The notes under the pieces: generated by a model
The model's input: the letters and a program-made list of their open reading frames with translations, nothing else
What the model was told of the DNA's origin: nothing
Database searches by the model: none
Shown: positions 4,982 to 59,004 of the stretch, piece after piece
Position numbering within the stretch: the first letter of the stretch is position 1
Layout: every line of letters starts with the position of its first letter
Assembly (NCBI GenBank): GCA_958296105.1
Contig: OY282441.1
Location: 655,800 to 719,799, forward strand
Length of the DNA: 64,000 bases
Source: an uncultured Dehalococcoidia bacterium
GTDB taxonomy: Bacteria; Chloroflexota; Dehalococcoidia; Lucifugimonadales; UBA1123
Direction: 5' to 3'
Position numbers and translations under genes: made by a program

Positions 4982-5242
4982 TCAGCCCAAGAGCTTGTTC
5001 AGGGCAACGTTGACTGCGACTCCGACTCCCACAGCGCTCACGAGCCACCTTATCAAACGGGACTCCATGGCTGATAGATCGGCTCTCAATCGGGACTCCA
5101 TAGCGGCTATATCGGCTCTCCATTTGACGACTTCGGTTCTCAGCTCGGCTACGTCGGCTTTCGTCGCCAGATGGTCGTATGCGCCTTCGAGTCGGCTGAC
5201 TCGCTCTTCGGTGGATGGTCTGTCGTCCGTTTGGGTGGTCAT
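4982..5242 (-). CDS. Coiled-coil protein with C-terminal membrane anchor, copy 4 of 4
   Basis: This is an 86-residue protein and the promoter-distal member of a four-gene tandem family. The N-terminus (MTTQTDDRPSTEERVSRLEG, then AYDHLATKADVAELRTE) is shared by all copies. A short coiled coil follows, made of heptad-like and 11-residue units (two copies of RAD(I/L)xAMESRL), then one hydrophobic C-terminal helix (WLVSAVGVGVAVNVALNKLLG). The overall plan resembles DUF1640/CCDC90-type proteins. It is the most divergent copy (W in place of G/L at VVKW, NKLLG rather than NRLLG). Function unknown. Confidence 0.7.
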   Translation of the reverse strand: MTTQTDDRPSTEERVSRLEGAYDHLATKADVAELRTEVVKWRADIAAMESRLRADLSAMESRLIRWLVSAVGVGVAVNVALNKLLG

Positions 5243-5275
5243 ATCCCCTCCGATGCCGCCTGTGTGGGATGCCGC

Positions 5276-5524
5276 TCAGCCCAAGAGCCTGTTCAGGGCA
5301 ACGGTGACTGCGACTCCGATTCCCGCAACGCTCACGATCCACTTTACCATTCGGGCCTCCATAGCGGCCATCTCGGCTCTTCCTTTGGCGACTTCAGTTC
5401 TCAGCTCGGCTATCTCCGTGCGCACGTCGGCTACGTCGGCTTTCGTCGCCAGATGGTCGTATGCGCCTTCGAGTCGGCTGACTCGCTCTTCGGTGGATGG
5501 TCTGTCGTCTGTTTGGGTGGTCAT
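5276..5524 (-). CDS. Coiled-coil protein with C-terminal membrane anchor, copy 3 of 4
   Basis: At 82 residues this is the shortest copy of the tandem family. It has the same N-terminus and the same C-terminal anchor (WIVSVAGIGVAVTVALNRLLG). The coiled coil is reduced to RTEIAEL-RTEVAKG-RAEMAAMEARM. The loss or gain relative to its sisters falls in whole 7-residue or 11-residue units, which keeps both the reading frame and the coiled-coil register. The spacer to the next copy is about 33 bases and is itself conserved between copies, so each duplication unit includes gene and leader. Confidence 0.7.
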   Translation of the reverse strand: MTTQTDDRPSTEERVSRLEGAYDHLATKADVADVRTEIAELRTEVAKGRAEMAAMEARMVKWIVSVAGIGVAVTVALNRLLG

Positions 5525-5557
5525 ATCCCCTCCGATGCCGCCTGTGCGGGATGCCGC

Positions 5558-5827
5558 TCAGCCCAAGAGCCTGTTCAGGGCAACGGTGATTGCGACTCCG
5601 ATTCCCACGGCGCTCACGAGCCACTTTACCATTCGGGTCTCCATGGCAGCCATCTCGGCTCTCAATTTGACGACTTCGGTTCTCACATCGGCTACCTCTA
5701 TTCGCACCTCGGCTATCTCCGTGCGCACGTCGGCTACGTCGGCTTTCGTCGCCAGATGGTCGTATGCGCCTTCGAGTCGGCTGACTCGCTCTTCGGTGGA
5801 TGGTCTGTCGTCTGTTTGGATGGTCAT
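5558..5827 (-). CDS. Coiled-coil protein with C-terminal membrane anchor, copy 2 of 4
   Basis: This 89-residue copy has four consecutive heptads (RTEIAEV, RIEVADV, RTEVVKL, RAEMAAM) before the single membrane helix. It therefore differs from its neighbours by insertion of two heptads. A single tail anchor with no signal peptide predicts a cytoplasmic coiled coil attached to the inner membrane, probably oligomeric. This prediction rests on sequence pattern only. It begins MTIQTDD rather than MTTQTDD. Confidence 0.7.
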   Translation of the reverse strand: MTIQTDDRPSTEERVSRLEGAYDHLATKADVADVRTEIAEVRIEVADVRTEVVKLRAEMAAMETRMVKWLVSAVGIGVAITVALNRLLG

Positions 5828-5863
5828 GGGGGATCCTCCTATGCCGCCTGTGTGGGATGCCGC

Positions 5864-6199
5864 TCAGCCCAAGAGCCTGTTCAGGGCAACGGTGACTGCG
5901 ACTCCGATTCCCACAACGCTCACGATCCACTTTACCATTCGGGTCTCCATGGCGGATAGATCGGCTCTCATTCGGGTCTCCATAGCAGATAGATCGGCTC
6001 TCATTCGGGTCTCCATGGCGGATAGATCGGCCCTTCCTTTGGCGACTTCAGTTCTCACCTCGGCTGCCTCTATTCGCACATTGGCTATCTCTGTGCGCAC
6101 GTCGGCTACGTCGGCTTTCGTCGCCAGATGGTCGTATGCGCCTTCGAGTCGGCTGACTCGCTCTTCGGTGGATGGTCTGTCGTCTGTTTGGGTGGTCAT
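5864..6199 (-). CDS. Coiled-coil protein with C-terminal membrane anchor, copy 1 of 4
   Basis: This is the first and longest copy (111 residues). After the shared N-terminus and three heptads it carries three nearly perfect 11-residue units (RADLSAMETRM), encoded by a 33-bp tandem repeat at about 5946-6035, then the tail anchor WIVSVVGIGVAVTVALNRLLG. A G/A-rich ribosome-binding stretch (GGATCCCCC complement) precedes the ATG. It faces the divergent GatC-like gene across an about 110-base intergenic region with a palindrome (6246-6261) that could serve both directions. Confidence 0.7.
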   Translation of the reverse strand: MTTQTDDRPSTEERVSRLEGAYDHLATKADVADVRTEIANVRIEAAEVRTEVAKGRADLSAMETRMRADLSAMETRMRADLSAMETRMVKWIVSVVGIGVAVTVALNRLLG

Positions 6200-6245
6200 G
6201 GGGGATCCTCAGATGTCGTTCGGGGCGCGGCGGTCTTGCGTTGAG

Positions 6246-51025: not shown

Positions 51026-51550
51026 ATGGCCACACAGGACGAGGAGGCGCGGCGAGTCAGGTCTTACTTGCAGTCGCAGGGTGAGAGGTACACGTTCGCC
51101 GAGCTTTGGACGCGGCTGATCAGGGCGAGGGTATCGCTGATGGACGCGGCGGAGGGGGTGACTCAGGAGCAGGCGGATTTCAGGTTCGCGCCCGACGAGT
51201 GGAGCATCTCGGAGGTGCTGCATCATCTGGTTACCAGCTCTGGAAGGGTCGCCGAGCTGGTGGAGGGGCTTTCTCGCGGTGAGTCCGTCGAGTCTGGAAG
51301 GATAGACCCGCCGCGCGAGGAGACGAGTCTGAGTATAGACGAGCTGCGGGCGCGGCTGCGGGACGACTCGATTTCGTGGTCGGCGCTGACGGAGCGGCTC
51401 TCCCCCGCTCCCGCCACCACGCCGACGGCGGCGCACTCGTTCTTCGGCGAGCTTCACGCGCGGGCGTGGTATCTGTTCCAGCGGGTTCACGACCTGGATC
51501 ACGCGGGGCAGATCGCCAAGAACAAGGCGGCGGATGGGTACCCGGAGTGA
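51026..51550 (+). CDS. DinB-superfamily protein
   Basis: This 174-residue four-helix-bundle protein is of the DinB/YfiT type, with probable metal ligands in EVLHHLV and HARAWYLFQRVHDLDHAGQI. Members include thiol-transferases (mycothiol, bacillithiol) and stress-induced proteins. The exact function is not predictable. GGAGGTAAGAGGGC precedes the ATG. Its stop overlaps a GTG in the frame of the next LLM enzyme, so the two are probably co-expressed. Confidence 0.85.
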   Translation: MATQDEEARRVRSYLQSQGERYTFAELWTRLIRARVSLMDAAEGVTQEQADFRFAPDEWSISEVLHHLVTSSGRVAELVEGLSRGESVESGRIDPPREETSLSIDELRARLRDDSISWSALTERLSPAPATTPTAAHSFFGELHARAWYLFQRVHDLDHAGQIAKNKAADGYPE

Positions 51551-51570
51551 GTGAAGAGGAGCGCGCGCAG

Positions 51571-52611
51571 ATGAAGATTGCGGTGAATGTCAGCTCGGAC
51601 GCGGATGGCGGCTGGGAGAGCGCGGCGGCGTTCGCGCTGGAGGCGGAGCGGCTGGGGGCGGAGTCGATCTGGTCAGGGGAATCTTGGGGGTTCGACGCCA
51701 TAACGCCGCTGGCGTATCTGTCGGCGCGGACGCGGCGAATCGGGCTGGGGACGGGGATCGTGCAGCTTGGGAGCAGGTCGCCGGCGAACCTCGCCATGGC
51801 TGCGATGTCTATGCAGTCGCTGTCCGGCGGGCGGTTTCGGCTCGGGCTGGGGGCGAGCGGGCCGCAGGTCGTGGAGGGATGGCACGGCGTCCCGTTCTCG
51901 CGTCCGATACAGCGCACGCGGGAGATGATCGAGATAGTGCGGCTGGCGACTGCGGGCGAGCGGCTGTCCTACGATGGGGAGGTGTACCGCCTTCCCCTGC
52001 CAGATGGCGAAGGGAGGGCGATAAGGTCGAGCGCGGAAGCTGTCCACGTGCCGATATACGTTGCCGCGCTGGGGCCGCGCAACCTGGAGCTGACCGGGGA
52101 GCTGGCGGACGGGTGGATCGGCGGGTCGTTCATCCCGGAGACGGGCGAGGCGTTCCTGAAGCATCTGAGGGCAGGGGCCGAGCGCGCGGGGCGGTCGCTC
52201 GACGATCTGGACTTGCAGATACCGCTCTCGGCGGAGCTCACGGACGACGTGGAGGAGGCGGGCAAGCGGCACGCGCGAGGGTACGCCTTCACGTTCGGGG
52301 CGATGGGGTCGCTCAGGAACAACTTCTACAAGAACGCATTCGCAAGGCAGGGCTTCGCCGAGGAGGTGGACGAGGTTCAGCGTCTGTGGATGGACAGGGA
52401 GCGCGACAAGGCGCGCGACGCGGTTCCGGTGGAGCTGGCGATGAAAGCCAACCTGATCGGCACTCCCTCGATGATTTCGGAGAGGCTGAGGGTCTACCGC
52501 CAAGCCGGGATCACCACGCTTCGGCTGGGGCTGGCAGGGGCGAACAACGGCGAGAGGCTGGACACGCTGGGGCGAGTGATGGATTTGGCAAAGGGACTGG
52601 ATCAGGCTTAG
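51571..52611 (+). CDS. LLM-class F420-dependent oxidoreductase
   Basis: This luciferase-like TIM-barrel enzyme of 346 residues starts MKIAVNVSSDADGGWESAAAF. It has RRIGLGTGIVQLGSRSPANLAMAAMSMQSLSGGRFRLGLGASGPQVVEGWHG and IGTPSMISERLRVYRQAGITTLRLGL, closely matching F420-dependent LLM families. cofC and cofD elsewhere in the window show that the cell makes F420. The ATG at 51571 has AGAGGAG nine bases upstream; GTG 51547 is an in-frame alternative that overlaps the DinB stop. Confidence 0.9.
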   Translation: MKIAVNVSSDADGGWESAAAFALEAERLGAESIWSGESWGFDAITPLAYLSARTRRIGLGTGIVQLGSRSPANLAMAAMSMQSLSGGRFRLGLGASGPQVVEGWHGVPFSRPIQRTREMIEIVRLATAGERLSYDGEVYRLPLPDGEGRAIRSSAEAVHVPIYVAALGPRNLELTGELADGWIGGSFIPETGEAFLKHLRAGAERAGRSLDDLDLQIPLSAELTDDVEEAGKRHARGYAFTFGAMGSLRNNFYKNAFARQGFAEEVDEVQRLWMDRERDKARDAVPVELAMKANLIGTPSMISERLRVYRQAGITTLRLGLAGANNGERLDTLGRVMDLAKGLDQA

Positions 52612-52748
52612 AATCAGGTGAGAGGAGATGGGAGACGCGGGCTTGCAAGCCCCGAACCGGGGCATTTCGCTACTCTCCGTAGTCGGACGATGGGCGTCCA
52701 TTCCAAAGCAGCTCGGACACGGCGCAGGAAACCAGAGGGAGGCGCGCA

Positions 52749-53498
52749 ATGTACGCGAGGGAGAAGCTCAAGTCGGCGAAGACGCGCAGGCGGTACACGA
52801 AGCTGCCCGACCCGCCAGATCCTACAGATATGACGCAGCACAAGTACATAACCGAAATCGACACCATCCTCAGAACGCGGTACGGGGGACGCGCGGACGT
52901 GTACATAGATGGGCAGGGCTATCTGTGCTATCGCACCACCGAGCTCATGTTCGCGCCGGACTGCATAATCTCCTTTGGCGTGGACGCCGAGGCGCTCGAA
53001 GATGCCAACGGATACGCCATAAGTGAGGTGGGAAAGCCGCCGGACTTCGTGCTGGAAGTGGCGTCTCCATCCACAGGCAGGCGCGACTACACCGAGAAGC
53101 GCGTGGGATACGAGGGGCTGCTCGTGGGCGAATACTGGCGCTTCGACAACACGGGCGGCGAGTACCACGACCGCGCGCTGGCAGGCGATCTGCTGGTGGA
53201 CGGCAGATACGTCGACATAGAGCTGCACGTGGAGGCGGACGGGATGATCTGGGGACACAGCCCGGCGCTGGGACTCGATCTGTGCTGGGACGACGGGCGT
53301 CTGCGCTTCTACGACCCGGTGGCTGGAGAGTACCTGCGCAGCCATTCGGAAGCGGAGGCGGAGCGCATCGCAGCGGAAGCGGAGCGCGACTCGGCCGAAG
53401 CCAGAGCGGGCGTGGCAGAAGCCAGGGCGACTGTGGCGGAGGCGGAAGTCCGCCGGCTTCGGGAGATGCTGCTCAGGCTCGAAGGAGGGGACGGCTAA
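52749..53498 (+). CDS. Uma2-family PD-(D/E)XK protein, copy 1 of 4
   Basis: This 249-residue protein has a Uma2 domain (PF05685, restriction-endonuclease-like fold), with PDC at 70-72, Glu103 in DFVLEVAS, and Lys117 in RRDYTEKRVGYEGL. A C-terminal coiled coil of Ala/Glu/Arg heptads ends RLREMLLRLEGGDG. Uma2 proteins are expanded in cyanobacteria and Chloroflexota, and their function is unknown despite the nuclease-like fold. It has the shortest tail linker type (ATVAEAEVRRL). The leader GAGGGAGGCGCGCA is shared by all copies. Confidence 0.85.
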   Translation: MYAREKLKSAKTRRRYTKLPDPPDPTDMTQHKYITEIDTILRTRYGGRADVYIDGQGYLCYRTTELMFAPDCIISFGVDAEALEDANGYAISEVGKPPDFVLEVASPSTGRRDYTEKRVGYEGLLVGEYWRFDNTGGEYHDRALAGDLLVDGRYVDIELHVEADGMIWGHSPALGLDLCWDDGRLRFYDPVAGEYLRSHSEAEAERIAAEAERDSAEARAGVAEARATVAEAEVRRLREMLLRLEGGDG

Positions 53499-53590
53499 GC
53501 GTCGTCCGAACCCTGAAGTCGGGCGCGGACCTGCCGCATCTCGCGCAGGTCGGCGAGCATACGGCGCAGGAAATCAAAGGGAGACGCGCA

Positions 53591-54385
53591 ATGTACGCGA
53601 GGGAGAAGATCAAGACGGCGAAGACGCGCAGGCGGTACACGCTGCTGCCCGACCCGCCAGATCCTACAGATATGACACAGCACAAGTACATAACCGAAAT
53701 CGACACCATCCTCAGAACGCGGTACGGGGGACGCGCGGACGTGTACATAGATGGGCAGGGCTATCTGTGCTACCGCACCACCGAGCTCATGTTCGCGCCT
53801 GACTGCATAATCTCCTTTGGCGTGGACGCCGAGGCGCTCGAAGATGCCAACGGATACACCATAAGCGAGGTGGGGAAGCCGCCGGACTTCGTGCTGGAAG
53901 TGGCGTCTCAGTCCACAGGCAGGCGCGACTACACCGAGAAGCGCGTGGGCTACGAGAGGCTGCTCGTGGGCGAATACTGGCGCTTCGACAACACGGGCGG
54001 CGAGTACCACGACCGCGCGCTGGCAGGCGATCTGCTGGTGGACGGCAGATACGTCGACATAGAGCTGCACGTGGAGGCGGACGGGATGATCTGGGGACAC
54101 AGTCCAGCGCTGGGGCTGGACCTGTGCTGGGACAACGGGCGTCTGCGCTTCTACGACCCGGTGGCTGGAGAGTACCTGCGCAGCCATTCGGAAGCGGAGG
54201 CGGAGCGCATCGCAGCGGAAGCGGAGCGCGCCTCGGCGGAAGCCAGAGCAGGGGTGGCAGAAGCCAGAGTGGGCGTGGCGGAGCATTGGCTGGCAACGGA
54301 GCGGCAAGCCAGAGAAGCGGCGGAGGCGGAAGTCCGACGGCTTCGGGAGATGCTGCTCAGGCTCGAAAGAGGGGACGACGGCTAA
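53591..54385 (+). CDS. Uma2-family PD-(D/E)XK protein, copy 2 of 4
   Basis: This copy (264 residues) is nearly identical to its sisters in the Uma2 core, with Q for P in EVASQSTGRRDYTEK and R for G in VGYERLLV, both shared with copy 3. The coiled-coil tail is longer (extra GVAEARVGVAEHWLATERQA units) and ends LERGDDG. The core PD, Glu103 and Lys117 residues are intact. A reading frame opens upstream through the CcmI-like tail fragment, but the conserved ATG with its GGAG-type leader marks the start. Confidence 0.85.
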   Translation: MYAREKIKTAKTRRRYTLLPDPPDPTDMTQHKYITEIDTILRTRYGGRADVYIDGQGYLCYRTTELMFAPDCIISFGVDAEALEDANGYTISEVGKPPDFVLEVASQSTGRRDYTEKRVGYERLLVGEYWRFDNTGGEYHDRALAGDLLVDGRYVDIELHVEADGMIWGHSPALGLDLCWDNGRLRFYDPVAGEYLRSHSEAEAERIAAEAERASAEARAGVAEARVGVAEHWLATERQAREAAEAEVRRLREMLLRLERGDDG

Positions 54386-54480
54386 GCGTCGTCCGAACCC
54401 TGAAGTCGGGCGCGAACCTGCCGCATCTCTTCGCGCAGGTCGGCGAGCATACGGCGCAGGAAACCAGAGGGAGGCGCGCA

Positions 54481-55230
54481 ATGTACACGAGGGAGAAGAT
54501 CAAGACGGCGAAGACGCGCAGGCGGTACACGCTGCTGCCCGACCCGCCAGATCCTACAGATATGACGCAGCACAAGTACATAACCGAAATCGACACCATC
54601 CTCAGAACGCGGTACGGAGGACGCGCGGACGTGTACATAGACGGGCAGGGCTATCTGTGCTACCGCACCACCGAGCTCATGTTCGCGCCGGACTGCATAA
54701 TCTCCTTTGGCGTGGACGCCGAGGCGCTCGAAGATGCCAACGGATACACCATAAGCGAGGTGGGGAAGCCGCCGGACTTCGTGCTGGAAGTGGCATCTCA
54801 ATCCACAGGCAGGCGCGACTACACCGAGAAGCGCGTGGGCTACGAGAGGCTGCTCGTGGGTGAATACTGGCGCTTCGACAACACGGGCGGCGAGTACCAC
54901 GACCGCGCGCTGGCAGGCGATCTGCTGGTGGACGGCAGATACGTCGACATAGAGCTGCATGTGGAGGCGGACGGGATGATCTGGGGACACAGTCCGGCGC
55001 TGGGACTCGATCTGTGCTGGGACGACGGGCGTCTGCGCTTCTACGACCCGGTGGCTGGAGAGTATCTGCGCAGTCATTCGGAAGCGGAAGCGGAGCGCGC
55101 CTCGGCGGAAGTCAGGGCGGGCGTGGCAGAGCATTGGCTGGCAGCGGAGCGGCAAGCCAGAGAAGCGGCGGAGGCGGAAGTCCGACGGCTTCGGGAGATG
55201 CTGCTCAGGCTCGAAGGAGGGGACGGCTAA
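54481..55230 (+). CDS. Uma2-family PD-(D/E)XK protein, copy 3 of 4
   Basis: This 249-residue copy starts MYTREKIKTAKTRRRY. Core catalytic-type residues are conserved. The tail has lost the ERIAAEA heptads (AEAERASAEVRAGVAEHWLA), so its length equals copy 1 by a different combination of units. It shares the Q and R substitutions with copy 2, suggesting that these two are each other's closest relatives or have exchanged sequence. Confidence 0.85.
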   Translation: MYTREKIKTAKTRRRYTLLPDPPDPTDMTQHKYITEIDTILRTRYGGRADVYIDGQGYLCYRTTELMFAPDCIISFGVDAEALEDANGYTISEVGKPPDFVLEVASQSTGRRDYTEKRVGYERLLVGEYWRFDNTGGEYHDRALAGDLLVDGRYVDIELHVEADGMIWGHSPALGLDLCWDDGRLRFYDPVAGEYLRSHSEAEAERASAEVRAGVAEHWLAAERQAREAAEAEVRRLREMLLRLEGGDG

Positions 55231-55325
55231 GCGTCGTCCGAACCCTGAAGTCGGGCGCGGACCTGCCGCATCTCTTCGCGCAGGTCGGCGAGCATACGGC
55301 GCAGGAAACCAGAGGGAGGCGCGCA

Positions 55326-56138
55326 ATGTACGCGAGGGAGAAGATCAAGTCGGCGAAGACGCGCAGGCGGTACACGCTGCTGCCCGACCCGCCAGACCCT
55401 ACAGATATGACGCAGCACAAGTACATAACCGAAATCGACACCATCCTCAGAACACGGTACGGAGGACGCGCGGACGTGTACATAGATGGGCAGGGCTATC
55501 TGTGCTATCGCACCACCGAGCTCATGTTCGCGCCGGACTGCATAATCTCCTTTGGCGTGGACGCCGAGGCGCTCGAAGATGCCAACGGATACACCATAAG
55601 CGAGGTGGGGAAGCCGCCGGACTTCGTGCTGGAAGTGGCGTCTCCATCCACAGGCAGGCGCGACTATACCGAGAAGCGCGTGGGATACGAGGGGCTGCTC
55701 GTGGGCGAATACTGGCGCTTCGACAACACGGGCGGCGAGTACCACGACCGCGCGCTGGCAGGCGATCTGCTGGTGGACGGCAGATACGTCGATATAGAGC
55801 TGCACGTGGAGGCGGACGGGATGATCTGGGGACACAGTCCGGCGCTGGGACTCGATCTGTGCTGGGACGACGGGCGTCTGCGCTTCTACGACCCGGTGGC
55901 TGGAGAGTACCTGCGCAGCCATTCGGAAGCGGAAGCGGAGCGCATCGCAGCGGAAGCGGAGCGCATCGCAGCGGAAGCGGAGCGCGACTCGGCGGAAGCC
56001 AGAGCAGGCGTGGCAGAAGCCAGGGCGGGCGTGGCGGAGTATGGGCTGGCAGCGGAGCGGCAAGCCAGAGAAGCGGCGGAGGCGGAAGTCCGACGGCTCC
56101 GGGAGATGCTGCTCAGGCTCGAAGGAGGGGACGGCTAA
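55326..56138 (+). CDS. Uma2-family PD-(D/E)XK protein, copy 4 of 4
   Basis: At 270 residues this is the longest copy. It has two ERIAAEA heptads and two EARAGVA units before the common end RLREMLLRLEGGDG. The core matches copy 1 (P and G at the two diagnostic positions). Its 3' end meets the 3' end of the convergent CcmI-like gene, which overlaps it by four bases. This arrangement is the source of the tail fragment carried by the other copies. Confidence 0.85.
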   Translation: MYAREKIKSAKTRRRYTLLPDPPDPTDMTQHKYITEIDTILRTRYGGRADVYIDGQGYLCYRTTELMFAPDCIISFGVDAEALEDANGYTISEVGKPPDFVLEVASPSTGRRDYTEKRVGYEGLLVGEYWRFDNTGGEYHDRALAGDLLVDGRYVDIELHVEADGMIWGHSPALGLDLCWDDGRLRFYDPVAGEYLRSHSEAEAERIAAEAERIAAEAERDSAEARAGVAEARAGVAEYGLAAERQAREAAEAEVRRLREMLLRLEGGDG

Positions 56139-56491
56139 GCGTCGTCCGAACCCTGAAGTCGGGCGCGGACCTGCCGTATCTCTTCGCGCAGGTCGGCGAG
56201 CATACGGCGCTCCTCATCGGGCGCAAGCTCCATGTCGCGCATGACCTGTGCGGCCTCGGACATGAGCTGGCGGCGGACGGCGCGGTAGTCGTCTTCGGTC
56301 TGGTTTCCGAGTATGCGGTCCAGCTCCGCGCTGGATAGGCCGGCGACGGCGGACTCCCAGCGTCTCATCAGGTCTGCCTGCGGAGCGCCCTCGTCGTACT
56401 CGAACTCGTCGCGGCGCAGACGCGCTACGAACGGCCACAGGATGAACACGGCGGGGACGAGGGTCAGCAGTATGGCTGCGAAGACGAGCAT
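56135..56491 (-). CDS. CcmI-like cytochrome c biogenesis protein
   Basis: This 118-residue protein has an N-terminal membrane helix (MLVFAAILLTLVPAVFILWPF) and a cytoplasmic/periplasmic helical part (LDRILGNQTEDDYRAVRRQLMSEAAQVMRDME). It resembles the first domain of CcmI. It lies six bases downstream of ccmF on the same strand, supporting a role in heme delivery to apocytochromes. The full-length CcmI TPR domain is missing, as in many short homologues. Its last 24 codons are the segment duplicated in the Uma2 array. Confidence 0.75.
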   Translation of the reverse strand: MLVFAAILLTLVPAVFILWPFVARLRRDEFEYDEGAPQADLMRRWESAVAGLSSAELDRILGNQTEDDYRAVRRQLMSEAAQVMRDMELAPDEERRMLADLREEIRQVRARLQGSDDA

Positions 56492-56497
56492 AGAGAG

Positions 56498-58486
56498 CTA
56501 CGCGCCGGCGGGGTGGGCGCCGCGTGGGACGGAGACGACGGCGGGCGCGGGACGGCGGCGGGGGGAGAGGGCGATCAGCGATCCGAGCAGCAGCACGGGG
56601 CCGGACGCCCACATCCACCAGACCATCGGGTTGATCAGCACGCGGAACACGGCCTGGCCGTCTCCGGAAAATTCGGACGGCACTATGTAGAAGTCCTCGA
56701 TGGGTGTGCTGTGTATCGCGCCAATAGTCGAGGCGATGCGGAACTGCGGGTACTCGGCCTTGAAGGGTTCCATCACGCCCAAGTATCTGTCGCCGGAGTA
56801 GACGTCGAATCGCGCGTAGGCCTCCTCCCTGTCGGGGAAGCTGGTGTGAGTCGTTCCCATGTAGGTGAAGGAGTAGTCGCCGAGTGTTCGGGTGTCGCCG
56901 GGGCGCATGACGAAATCGCGCTGAACGCTGTAGAACGAGGATGCGGCGGCGCCGGCGGCGAGCATGATGATGGCGAGGTGGACGACGTATCCGCCGTAGC
57001 GCGGTCGGTTGGCGGCGAGCAGTCTTGCGAAGGCGAGGTGGTACGGCTCGCCGGCTCGGTGGCGCGAGAGTGTTCCGCGCAGCCACTCCTGGCCTATGCC
57101 CGCCACGACCAAGGCGCAGGTCGCGGACGCCAGCAGCGCCACCGGTCGGGTGACGCCGAGCGCGGCGAGCGCGACTGTGGCGGCGAGCGCGAACGCGAGA
57201 GGCCAGCGCAGCATCCTGAACATGTTTCGGGGCGCGGCGCGCCGCCAGGGGAGGATGGGGCCCACTCCCATTAGAAGGACGATTCCCAGAAGCATGGGGC
57301 CGTTGACTCTGTTGAAGAACGGCTGGCCGACGGTGACCACCGTGTCGCTGGCGGCCTCCGAGAAGATTGGAAAGATCGTCCCCCACAGGGTGGCGAACGC
57401 CACGGCGAGGAACAGGACGTTCTGGGTGAGGAACGCGCTTTCGCGCGAGAGTATCGACTCCAGTCTGCCTCGACTCCTGAGGGACGGGGATTTCCAGATG
57501 AAGGCGGCTGTGGACGCTATCAGCGTCACCGCCATGAACAGCAGGAACAGCCAGCCCATCGTCGACTGGGCGAACGAGTGGACGGACGGGACTGGGCCGC
57601 CGCGGTTGATGAACATGCCGAGCTGCGCCATAGTGAAGGCGATGATGATGATTGCCATGTTCCACATTCTGAACATGCCGCGCCGCTTCTGAACCATTAT
57701 GGAGTGGACGAAGGCGGTCATGGCGAGCCAAGGCATGAGGGCGGAGTTCTCGACGGGGTCCCAAGCCCAGTATCCGCCCCAGCCGAGTATGGTGTACGCC
57801 CACCACGAGCCGAGCATCAGCCCAAAGGTGAGGACGAGCCACGCTATCATGCCCCACAGCCGGCCCTGATCGACCCACTCATCGCTGCCGCCCTTGTTGG
57901 CGAGCAGCGCGCCCATGGCTATGGAGAAGGGTATTGCCACTGAGACGAGTCCTGCCATCTGAAGGGGCGGGTGGATGAACATTCCGAAGTGGACGAGCAG
58001 CGGGTTGATGCCCTGCCCGTCCGCTGGGACAGCCTCCAGCCGCGCGAGCGGGTTGGCGAGAAAGAGCATGACGCCCAGCAGAAAGGCTAGTACCAATGCC
58101 ATGATTGCGGTGGCATACGGGGACGTGTACGGCAGCTTGCGCCGTATGCCGACAATGGCGGCGAGCGACATGAGGGAGAAGATCACGGCGAGATACAGCA
58201 TGGAGCCTGCGTTGCCGGCGTAGAAGGCGACCCACGTATAGGCGCGCGGCATTGCCAGATTGCTGTTCTCGGCAACGTAGCGCACTGAGAAGTCGCTGGT
58301 GACGAAGGCGTAGACGAGGGCGGCGGTGGAGACGAGCAGCAGCGCGGGGACGCTGTACATGCCGAATCTGCCGCTGACGAGCAGCTCGGAGGAGCGGCGC
58401 GCCACGCCGAGCGCGGACGCGAGCGCGGCGTACACGCAGACGACGAACGCGAGCGCCAAGGCGAGCTGTCCGGCTTCTACGATCAT
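56498..58486 (-). CDS. ccmF: Heme lyase CcmF/cytochrome c assembly protein
   Basis: CcmF (662 residues) is a polytopic membrane protein with about 15 helices that transfers heme to apocytochrome c. The tryptophan-rich WWD motif is clear (GWGGYWAWDPVENSALMPWL), preceded by the conserved histidine segment HPPLQMAGLV. The ATG at 58486 overlaps the ccmH stop (ATGA); an open frame further upstream overlaps ccmH and is not coding. Together with CcmH and the CcmI-like protein it forms a system I module, though CcmA-E are not in the window. Confidence 0.95.
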   Translation of the reverse strand: MIVEAGQLALALAFVVCVYAALASALGVARRSSELLVSGRFGMYSVPALLLVSTAALVYAFVTSDFSVRYVAENSNLAMPRAYTWVAFYAGNAGSMLYLAVIFSLMSLAAIVGIRRKLPYTSPYATAIMALVLAFLLGVMLFLANPLARLEAVPADGQGINPLLVHFGMFIHPPLQMAGLVSVAIPFSIAMGALLANKGGSDEWVDQGRLWGMIAWLVLTFGLMLGSWWAYTILGWGGYWAWDPVENSALMPWLAMTAFVHSIMVQKRRGMFRMWNMAIIIIAFTMAQLGMFINRGGPVPSVHSFAQSTMGWLFLLFMAVTLIASTAAFIWKSPSLRSRGRLESILSRESAFLTQNVLFLAVAFATLWGTIFPIFSEAASDTVVTVGQPFFNRVNGPMLLGIVLLMGVGPILPWRRAAPRNMFRMLRWPLAFALAATVALAALGVTRPVALLASATCALVVAGIGQEWLRGTLSRHRAGEPYHLAFARLLAANRPRYGGYVVHLAIIMLAAGAAASSFYSVQRDFVMRPGDTRTLGDYSFTYMGTTHTSFPDREEAYARFDVYSGDRYLGVMEPFKAEYPQFRIASTIGAIHSTPIEDFYIVPSEFSGDGQAVFRVLINPMVWWMWASGPVLLLGSLIALSPRRRPAPAVVSVPRGAHPAGA

Positions 58487-59004
58487 CCGCCGTCCTCTCG
58501 GGGGCGCGGAGGCGGACCTTCGGCGGGGTCGGGGTCCAGGGCGCCTTCCAGTCTGGCCAGGTAGGCTGACCGAGCGGAGTCGTCTTCCCCGTCCCTGCCC
58601 GTCTGCGTGGAGGGCGGCGCGGCGCGCATCCAGCGCAGGGTCAGCAGCAGCGCGGCGAGCGCGAGAGCGAACGCCACGGGCGGGACGAACCAAGCGGCGA
58701 GGCCGAACCCGCTGGTGGGCGGTTCGAGCAGGACGCTGGGGCCGTACCTCTCCACGAAGAAGTCTCTGATCTGATCGTCGCTCCAGCCCTCGGCGAGCTT
58801 CTCGCTCACGATGGCGCGCATCTGACCGGCGAGGGCGTTCTGGCTCTGGTCTATGGACTCGCCGGGACAGACGGGGCACATGATGGTCTGGTTCAGCTGC
58901 TGCGCTCTGCGCTCGACGTGGGGAACGTCGCGCTGGGCGGAGATGACGCATGCCGCCAGCGTGAGGGCGGCGGCGAGCAGTATGGCTGTGGATGCCGATT
59001 TCAC
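58483..59004 (-). CDS. ccmH: Cytochrome c-type biogenesis protein CcmH
   Basis: CcmH (173 residues) has a lipoprotein-like signal (ALTLAAC), the redox motif CPVC at 43-46 in IMCPVCPGESIDQSQNALAGQ, then SDDQIRDFFVERYGPSVLLEPP and a C-terminal membrane helix. It keeps apocytochrome cysteines reduced for heme attachment. It is the first gene of the ccmH-ccmF-ccmI-like operon. Its likely clients in this window include the di-heme cytochrome at 12.4-13.8 kb. Confidence 0.94.
   Translation of the reverse strand: MKSASTAILLAAALTLAACVISAQRDVPHVERRAQQLNQTIMCPVCPGESIDQSQNALAGQMRAIVSEKLAEGWSDDQIRDFFVERYGPSVLLEPPTSGFGLAAWFVPPVAFALALAALLLTLRWMRAAPPSTQTGRDGEDDSARSAYLARLEGALDPDPAEGPPPRPREDGG

Follow-up and report, generated by a model that had tools for sequence, protein, structure and literature searches.

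The Uma2 array and its junctions

The window analysed here is a stretch of 64,000 bp (bases 655800-719799) from the genome of an uncultured Dehalococcoidia bacterium, which consists of one contig of 3.18 Mb (OY282441.1, assembly GCA_958296105.1). It contains four head-to-tail units, each with one gene of the Uma2 family of putative nucleases. The units start at positions 52719, 53561, 54451 and 55296 of the window, on which the sequence, a repeat finder and the junction alignment agree; the spacings are 842, 890 and 845 bp, and the repeat finder gave an identity of 96-98% across 300 nt. The units share one layout: the heptamer ACGGCGC, a leader of 30 bp in which GGGAGG (GGGAGA in unit 2) resembles a ribosome-binding site, a single Uma2 frame on the plus strand, and the last ~70 bp of a minus-strand gene linked to ccmF, here called ccmI-like. 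Unit 1 (52719-53560, 842 bp) holds the Uma2 gene 52749-53498 and a neighbour-tail fragment (53495-53560) with one 3-bp deletion; unit 2 (53561-54450, 890 bp) the gene 53591-54385 and the fragment 54382-54450; unit 3 (54451-55295, 845 bp) the gene 54481-55230 and the fragment 55227-55295; and unit 4 (55296-56203, 908 bp) the gene 55326-56138. Unit 4 continues into the intact ccmI-like gene, and the stop codon of its Uma2 gene overlaps that of the ccmI-like gene.

On the left the array is preceded by an open reading frame for an LLM-class F420-dependent oxidoreductase (51376-52611, plus strand), whose true start is probably further in and whose best NCBIfam model, TIGR03559, scored under its cut-off. 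Between this frame and the array lies a left flank of 107 bp (52612-52718) that is unique in the genome; a repeated nature of this flank was considered and rejected, as a DNA search of the genome matched only the array site. On the right, the intact ccmI-like gene (56135-56491, minus strand) encodes a small protein of 118 amino acids with same-place homologues in five relatives, and units 1-3 each repeat its final ~70 bp as their tail. The label ccmI-like refers to the position beside ccmF only, the protein being without a Pfam match and its NCBIfam match being below the cut-off. The ccmF-type open reading frame itself (56498-58951, minus strand) was named without a family search and has homologues in all 12 relatives searched. 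Scans for promoters and terminators gave nothing clearly above chance.

A preliminary description of this DNA had proposed that the array was formed between copies of a 7-bp microhomology. The heptamer is indeed present at the left border (52719-52725), at the three internal junctions (53561-53567, 54451-54457 and 55296-55302) and at the right border inside the ccmI-like gene (56204-56210). When units and flanks were aligned base by base, all three internal junctions read CATACGGCGCAGGAAA, i.e., the right flank (CAT) is followed by ACGGCGC and then by the left flank (AGGAAA), so that the right flank is fused to the left flank with an overlap of 7 bp. ACGGCGC occurs 26 times on the plus strand of the window, which has 63% G+C. 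In a simulation of 200,000 random pairs of breakpoints placed 0.5-4 kb apart in the window, at least 7 bp were shared in 0.095% of the pairs (P = 0.00095), and the short identity at the two breakpoints thus exceeds chance.

Twelve relatives were fetched for comparison, five of which are informative for this site (G001 from the same genus and G004, G005, G006 and G007 from the same family). All five have ccmF and the ccmI-like gene, followed on the opposite strand by the LLM oxidoreductase gene, which faces the ccmI-like gene tail-to-tail, and a DinB-like one, with no Uma2 between; the stop codons of the LLM and ccmI-like genes overlap there or are separated by no more than a few tens of bases. 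The remaining relatives are uninformative, the ccmI-like gene being not found beside ccmF in G002, G003 and G010, and found without a subsequent LLM match in G016, G036, G039 and G046. Since the site is empty in every informative relative, the array is probably a derived insertion that was later duplicated. The neighbour tail of the array aligns to the ccmI-like tails of the relatives, and it is therefore native sequence copied along with Uma2, not sequence imported with it. The proposed tandem duplication at a 7-bp microhomology, carrying the tail of the neighbouring gene, is thus supported by both the sequence and the empty-site comparison. A different locus, with an orthologue in the congener G003, holds two Uma2 copies in this genome (L039) and a single one in G003 (L101), in both cases next to a shared neighbour gene; the Uma2 genes of the two loci are sisters in the tree described below (support 0.73).

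The copies had also been described as open and near-identical, with recency or selection for dosage as possible reasons. All four frames are intact (249, 264, 249 and 270 amino acids). Near-identity holds at the protein level, at about 96-98%, but the units differ at 51 gap-free variable sites, most of them private to one copy, and by indels of 21 bp and multiples thereof. These indels lie in the coiled-coil tail part of the units, where 7-residue blocks are gained or lost and the differences between copies concentrate. The divergence is star-like; of the few sites with a 2:2 distribution, some group units 1 and 4 against 2 and 3 and others units 1 and 2 against 3 and 4. Mean pairwise divergence is 0.094 at synonymous and 0.018 at non-synonymous sites, with a ratio of the two (pN/pS) of 0.19 by Nei-Gojobori counts pooled over non-independent pairs. 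The suggestion of recency was thus only partly right, because the synonymous divergence and the mostly private variable sites indicate that the copies have existed for some time, and selection is borne out as purifying selection, not as selection for dosage as such. The array is therefore not freshly made, and the constraint on its copies is well supported.

Uma2 proteins and their arrays across the genome

All four copies exceed the Pfam cut-off for Uma2 (PF05685/COG4636) in a genome-wide search; copies 1 and 4, which were also scanned individually, scored 39.8 and 40.8 bits against a cut-off of 27. The match covers residues 59-159; the long C-terminal coiled-coil helix (residues 199-267) lies beyond it and sets these proteins apart from the family as defined in Pfam. 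An AlphaFold model with a predicted local distance difference test score of 88.9 had as its top Foldseek matches 9y1l, 6okh, 3ot2 (DUF820) and 1wdj (TT1808), with expectation values (E) of 3e-7 to 2e-4 and target-normalised template modelling scores of 0.42-0.60, so the predicted fold is the PD-(D/E)XK fold of solved Uma2/DUF820 proteins. This likeness was found by fold search; phmmer gave no sequence match to solved structures. Residues P70-D71, E103 and K117 are invariant in 16 aligned sequences, and K117 is placed by the model in helix 111-123, after strand 100-104. D71, E103 and K117 fit the predicted PD-EXX-K active site with a displaced lysine, an assignment that follows Feder and Bujnicki (2005; PMC551604; statements on this and the other papers cited apply to the part of each text that was available) and not a structure superposition. 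PDC-S03, a candidate defence family for which PADLOC gives no description, was matched weakly (E = 1.5e-10), which hints at a possible defence role.

The genome as a whole has 76 Uma2 genes in the Pfam search, none of which has a stop inside the domain. They form 32 loci, 20 of which are tandem arrays of 2-7 copies, together comprising 64 genes. In a tree of these 76 proteins and 53 from the fetched stretches of relatives (part of the Uma2 genes of those relatives), every one of the 20 arrays was monophyletic, with support of 0.97-1.0, which suggests that each array expanded in place or is kept uniform there. Pooled pN/pS ranged from 0.14 to 0.52 and was thus below 1 in all 20 arrays. The closest kin of the array studied here is the three-copy array L026, followed by the five-copy array L027, as would be expected if an ancestor spread to three places, with each copy multiplying locally afterwards. 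DNA similarity among the three loci is limited to the gene and its immediate surroundings, and no 0.85-kb unit with the same ends was found elsewhere in the genome.

Two observations on other Uma2 loci may be added. The single-copy Uma2 genes at L040:2791-3741 and L041:2342-3292 (near 1.1008 Mb and 0.4113 Mb) stand at unrelated sites and are 91% identical across the full gene length; their core is near-identical and both ends are clearly different, with the homology ending close to the start and stop codons. Such a pattern may point to conversion among dispersed copies or to a gene that moved by itself. L027 and L108 of G003 share the same neighbour DNA; beside it the present genome has a long-type Uma2 array and G003 a Uma2 gene of the short type, as though two colonisations had taken place there.

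Tandem duplication in relatives and in other gene families

With tandem loci defined by a gap of under 1 kb in this genome and in the relatives alike, only 8 of 136 Uma2 loci were tandem in eight relatives, including 2 of 30 in the congener G003 (6 contigs). In G001, G002 and G036 some arrays may have gone unnoticed because the assemblies are fragmented; the other five, with 1-6 contigs each, gave 7 tandem loci out of 72. Uma2 pairs in G027, G099 and G123 and a triple in G143 were among the matches listed in a survey of the class. Within the present genome, luciferase-like genes were tandem at 1 of 37 loci at most and PIN genes at none of 7, and the difference between 20/32 and 1/37 loci is significant (Fisher, p = 3e-8).

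Tandem regions of any kind (unit of at least 300 bp, identity of at least 80%) were counted in 29 evenly spaced 20-kb stretches of the genome (580 kb) and in 20 stretches of G003 (400 kb), giving 12 regions, two of them Uma2, and 1 region, respectively. Without Uma2 the counts are 10 against 1 (one-sided binomial, p = 0.027). Several of the 12 regions are repeats within genes or not clearly genes. The whole-gene cases comprise a run of three RDD genes, an aspartic-protease-like pair, two pairs of small helical proteins, a HEPN-like pair and a dppC pair, these names coming from reading of the translations and not from a database search. The genome is duplication-prone in general, and its Uma2 loci are far more so.

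Some further repeats were seen along the way. Three tandem genes of RDD-type membrane proteins at L039:4039-5485, up to 97% identical, directly follow a Uma2 pair. A small helical protein is encoded by one tandem pair at L137:1087-1897 and by another at L155:11279-12181; it represents another small family duplicating in place, which by eye we presume to resemble PaREP1-type proteins. A very long ankyrin-repeat-like gene at L061:6600-12400 has many internal repeats at the DNA level, and positions 4982-6218 of the window form a tandem repeat with a unit of ~300 bp that no single gene convincingly covers.

Origin and persistence of the arrays

The array was very probably formed when a single inserted Uma2 gene was duplicated by way of the ACGGCGC microhomology and expanded to four copies, which purifying selection has kept. 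The order of events and the kind of recombination are what we infer from the structure of the locus. One Uma2 gene would first have come to sit in the short gap between the convergent LLM oxidoreductase and ccmI-like genes. An illegitimate joining of the ACGGCGC within the ccmI-like gene to the ACGGCGC found 30 bp upstream of the Uma2 start, most likely by a template switch or slippage in replication or repair, would then have duplicated a segment of 0.85 kb and left both neighbours undamaged. As the junctions are identical, a single founding duplication is well supported. Unequal homologous exchange among the units could afterwards have raised the number to four; the copies would then have diverged, with purifying selection keeping working proteins. 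Equivalent in-place duplications have very probably occurred at the 19 other arrayed Uma2 loci, with different borders each time. End joining by Ku was rejected as the source of the duplication: Ku was not found in this genome (it was found in 3 of 12 genomes searched), and its absence from the search results together with the presence of MutS-type genes makes Ku-type end joining unlikely. Loss of MutS as the cause of raised duplication was likewise rejected, two MutS-type genes being present here as in 11 of the 12 genomes (G004 has one).

Several points weigh against this explanation. Among the junctions listed, an overlap of at least 7 bp was found in only 2 of the 20 arrays, namely the present one and L034, with 10 bp at both junctions. 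The overlap is 2 bp in L027 and 0-1 bp in L030, L035 and part of L033, and in the remaining arrays the two matches are separated by sequence that matches neither flank, from a few bases to as many as 138 bp. Such intervening stretches are partly due to divergence of the edges in old arrays. With so few arrays of this kind, microhomology is not the general rule. Moreover, none of the relatives searched was found to have this locus with a single Uma2 copy, and in G001 the aligned tail of the ccmI-like gene shows no ACGGCGC site. Finally, the non-coding leader and tail fragments differ by ~2.5% (hand count in the unit alignment) compared with ~9% at synonymous sites, which simple divergence fails to explain; conversion or a hidden constraint may be responsible.

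Tandem Uma2 cassettes and the idea of self-duplication have been in print since 2005-2009, and the present case is a strong one, unusual in extent and resolution. Feder and Bujnicki (2005) assigned the family to the PD-(D/E)XK nucleases, found tandem duplications generally rare, with one run of four reported, and suggested that these enzymes further their own spread, also by tandem duplication. Makarova et al. (2009; PMC2701414) regarded Uma2 as a likely solo toxin occurring mostly in cassettes of paralogues and tabulated COG4636-COG4636 pairs (114). Fifteen Uma2 paralogues were reported in Thermus thermophilus (PMC1274311). The arrays described here share with those cassettes the Pfam family, the predicted fold, the tandem paralogues and the high copy number; they differ in making up 20 of 32 loci and reaching seven copies, in a member of the Dehalococcoidia, with junctions resolved to the base and a host-gene tail. 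In the literature searched for Uma2, DUF820 and COG4636, no description of Uma2 arrays in Dehalococcoidia was found. Thermosynechococcus similarly combines a Uma2-expanded genome with tandem arrays (11, 3 and 3 copies) of the recombination-promoting nuclease Rpn, which belongs to a different nuclease family, and the available text gives no description at the junction level (PMC9403480). Microhomology of 3-30 bp was reported at the junctions of Escherichia coli lac amplifications (PMC3161906), and yeast CUP1 arrays were made by unequal non-homologous recombination (PMC4232551). Those systems resemble the present one in a novel joint that has hardly any homology, if at all, and in a subsequent head-to-tail expansion in which each repeat carries the identical joint. 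However, the arrays here are diverged and maintained rather than recent selected amplifications, and their mechanism is a reconstruction.

What favours duplication of Uma2 in particular is likewise a matter of interpretation. It is quite possible, while falling somewhat short of probable, that extra copies are selected, either for more product or for diversified copies, e.g., of a defence or toxin-like nuclease. The low pN/pS in every array, the PDC-S03 match, the concentration of variation between copies in the coiled-coil tail and the solo-toxin proposal of Makarova et al. (2009) are in line with this. However, purifying selection shows that the proteins have retained their function, not that a higher dosage is advantageous. 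More doubtful is the notion that Uma2 is nothing special and that, in a duplication-prone lineage, duplications of small dispensable genes in convergent gaps simply survive. The other tandem genes in the sampled 580 kb (the three RDD genes and several pairs) and the excess of non-Uma2 regions over G003 speak for it; on the other hand, duplication per locus is far commoner in Uma2 than in the sampled genes, and purifying selection in all 20 arrays speaks against purely neutral retention.

The proposal of Feder and Bujnicki (2005), applied to this genome, would have Uma2 nucleases nick or break DNA near their own genes, with repair yielding tandem copies as a form of selfish proliferation. It is consistent with the contrast between Uma2 loci and the luciferase-like and PIN loci, with the invariant predicted catalytic residues and the matching fold, and with the finding that the most Uma2-rich genome is also duplication-rich elsewhere. 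Nevertheless, it must be regarded as unlikely: G003, with 30 Uma2 loci of which only 2 are tandem, indicates that presence of the gene alone is insufficient, the borders vary among arrays with no shared cut-site motif seen in the junction alignments, and nuclease activity is only predicted. Its wider form, in which Uma2 proteins are recombinogenic nucleases, multiply their own genes on the spot and also raise tandem duplication across the chromosome, with the congener of few arrays as a natural control, appears improbable too. An assembly artefact might be suspected in a genome from an uncultured organism, and is very unlikely indeed, as the copies are several percent apart and carry private substitutions and indels, the 20 arrays have distinct borders and the frames are intact. 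Least credible of all is a repeatedly inserting mobile element with the 7-bp direct repeats flanking the array as its target-site duplication, since insertion would not place a native ccmI-like tail inside the right repeat and none left of the left repeat, and the remaining arrays are bordered differently and have no ends in common; a transposable element with fixed ends and an outside target-site duplication was rejected on the same ground, the unit holding the tail of a native host gene.

Uma2 is a widespread family of putative nucleases whose proliferation has been puzzling since 2005. Twenty independent in-place arrays and a congener nearly without arrays provide clean junctions, internal replicates and a control, and such material would allow selection, self-driven breakage and plain tolerance to be told apart, making the idea of self-multiplication testable. 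At the locus described here, microhomology in convergent gene ends would have allowed part of a host gene to be copied along without harm.

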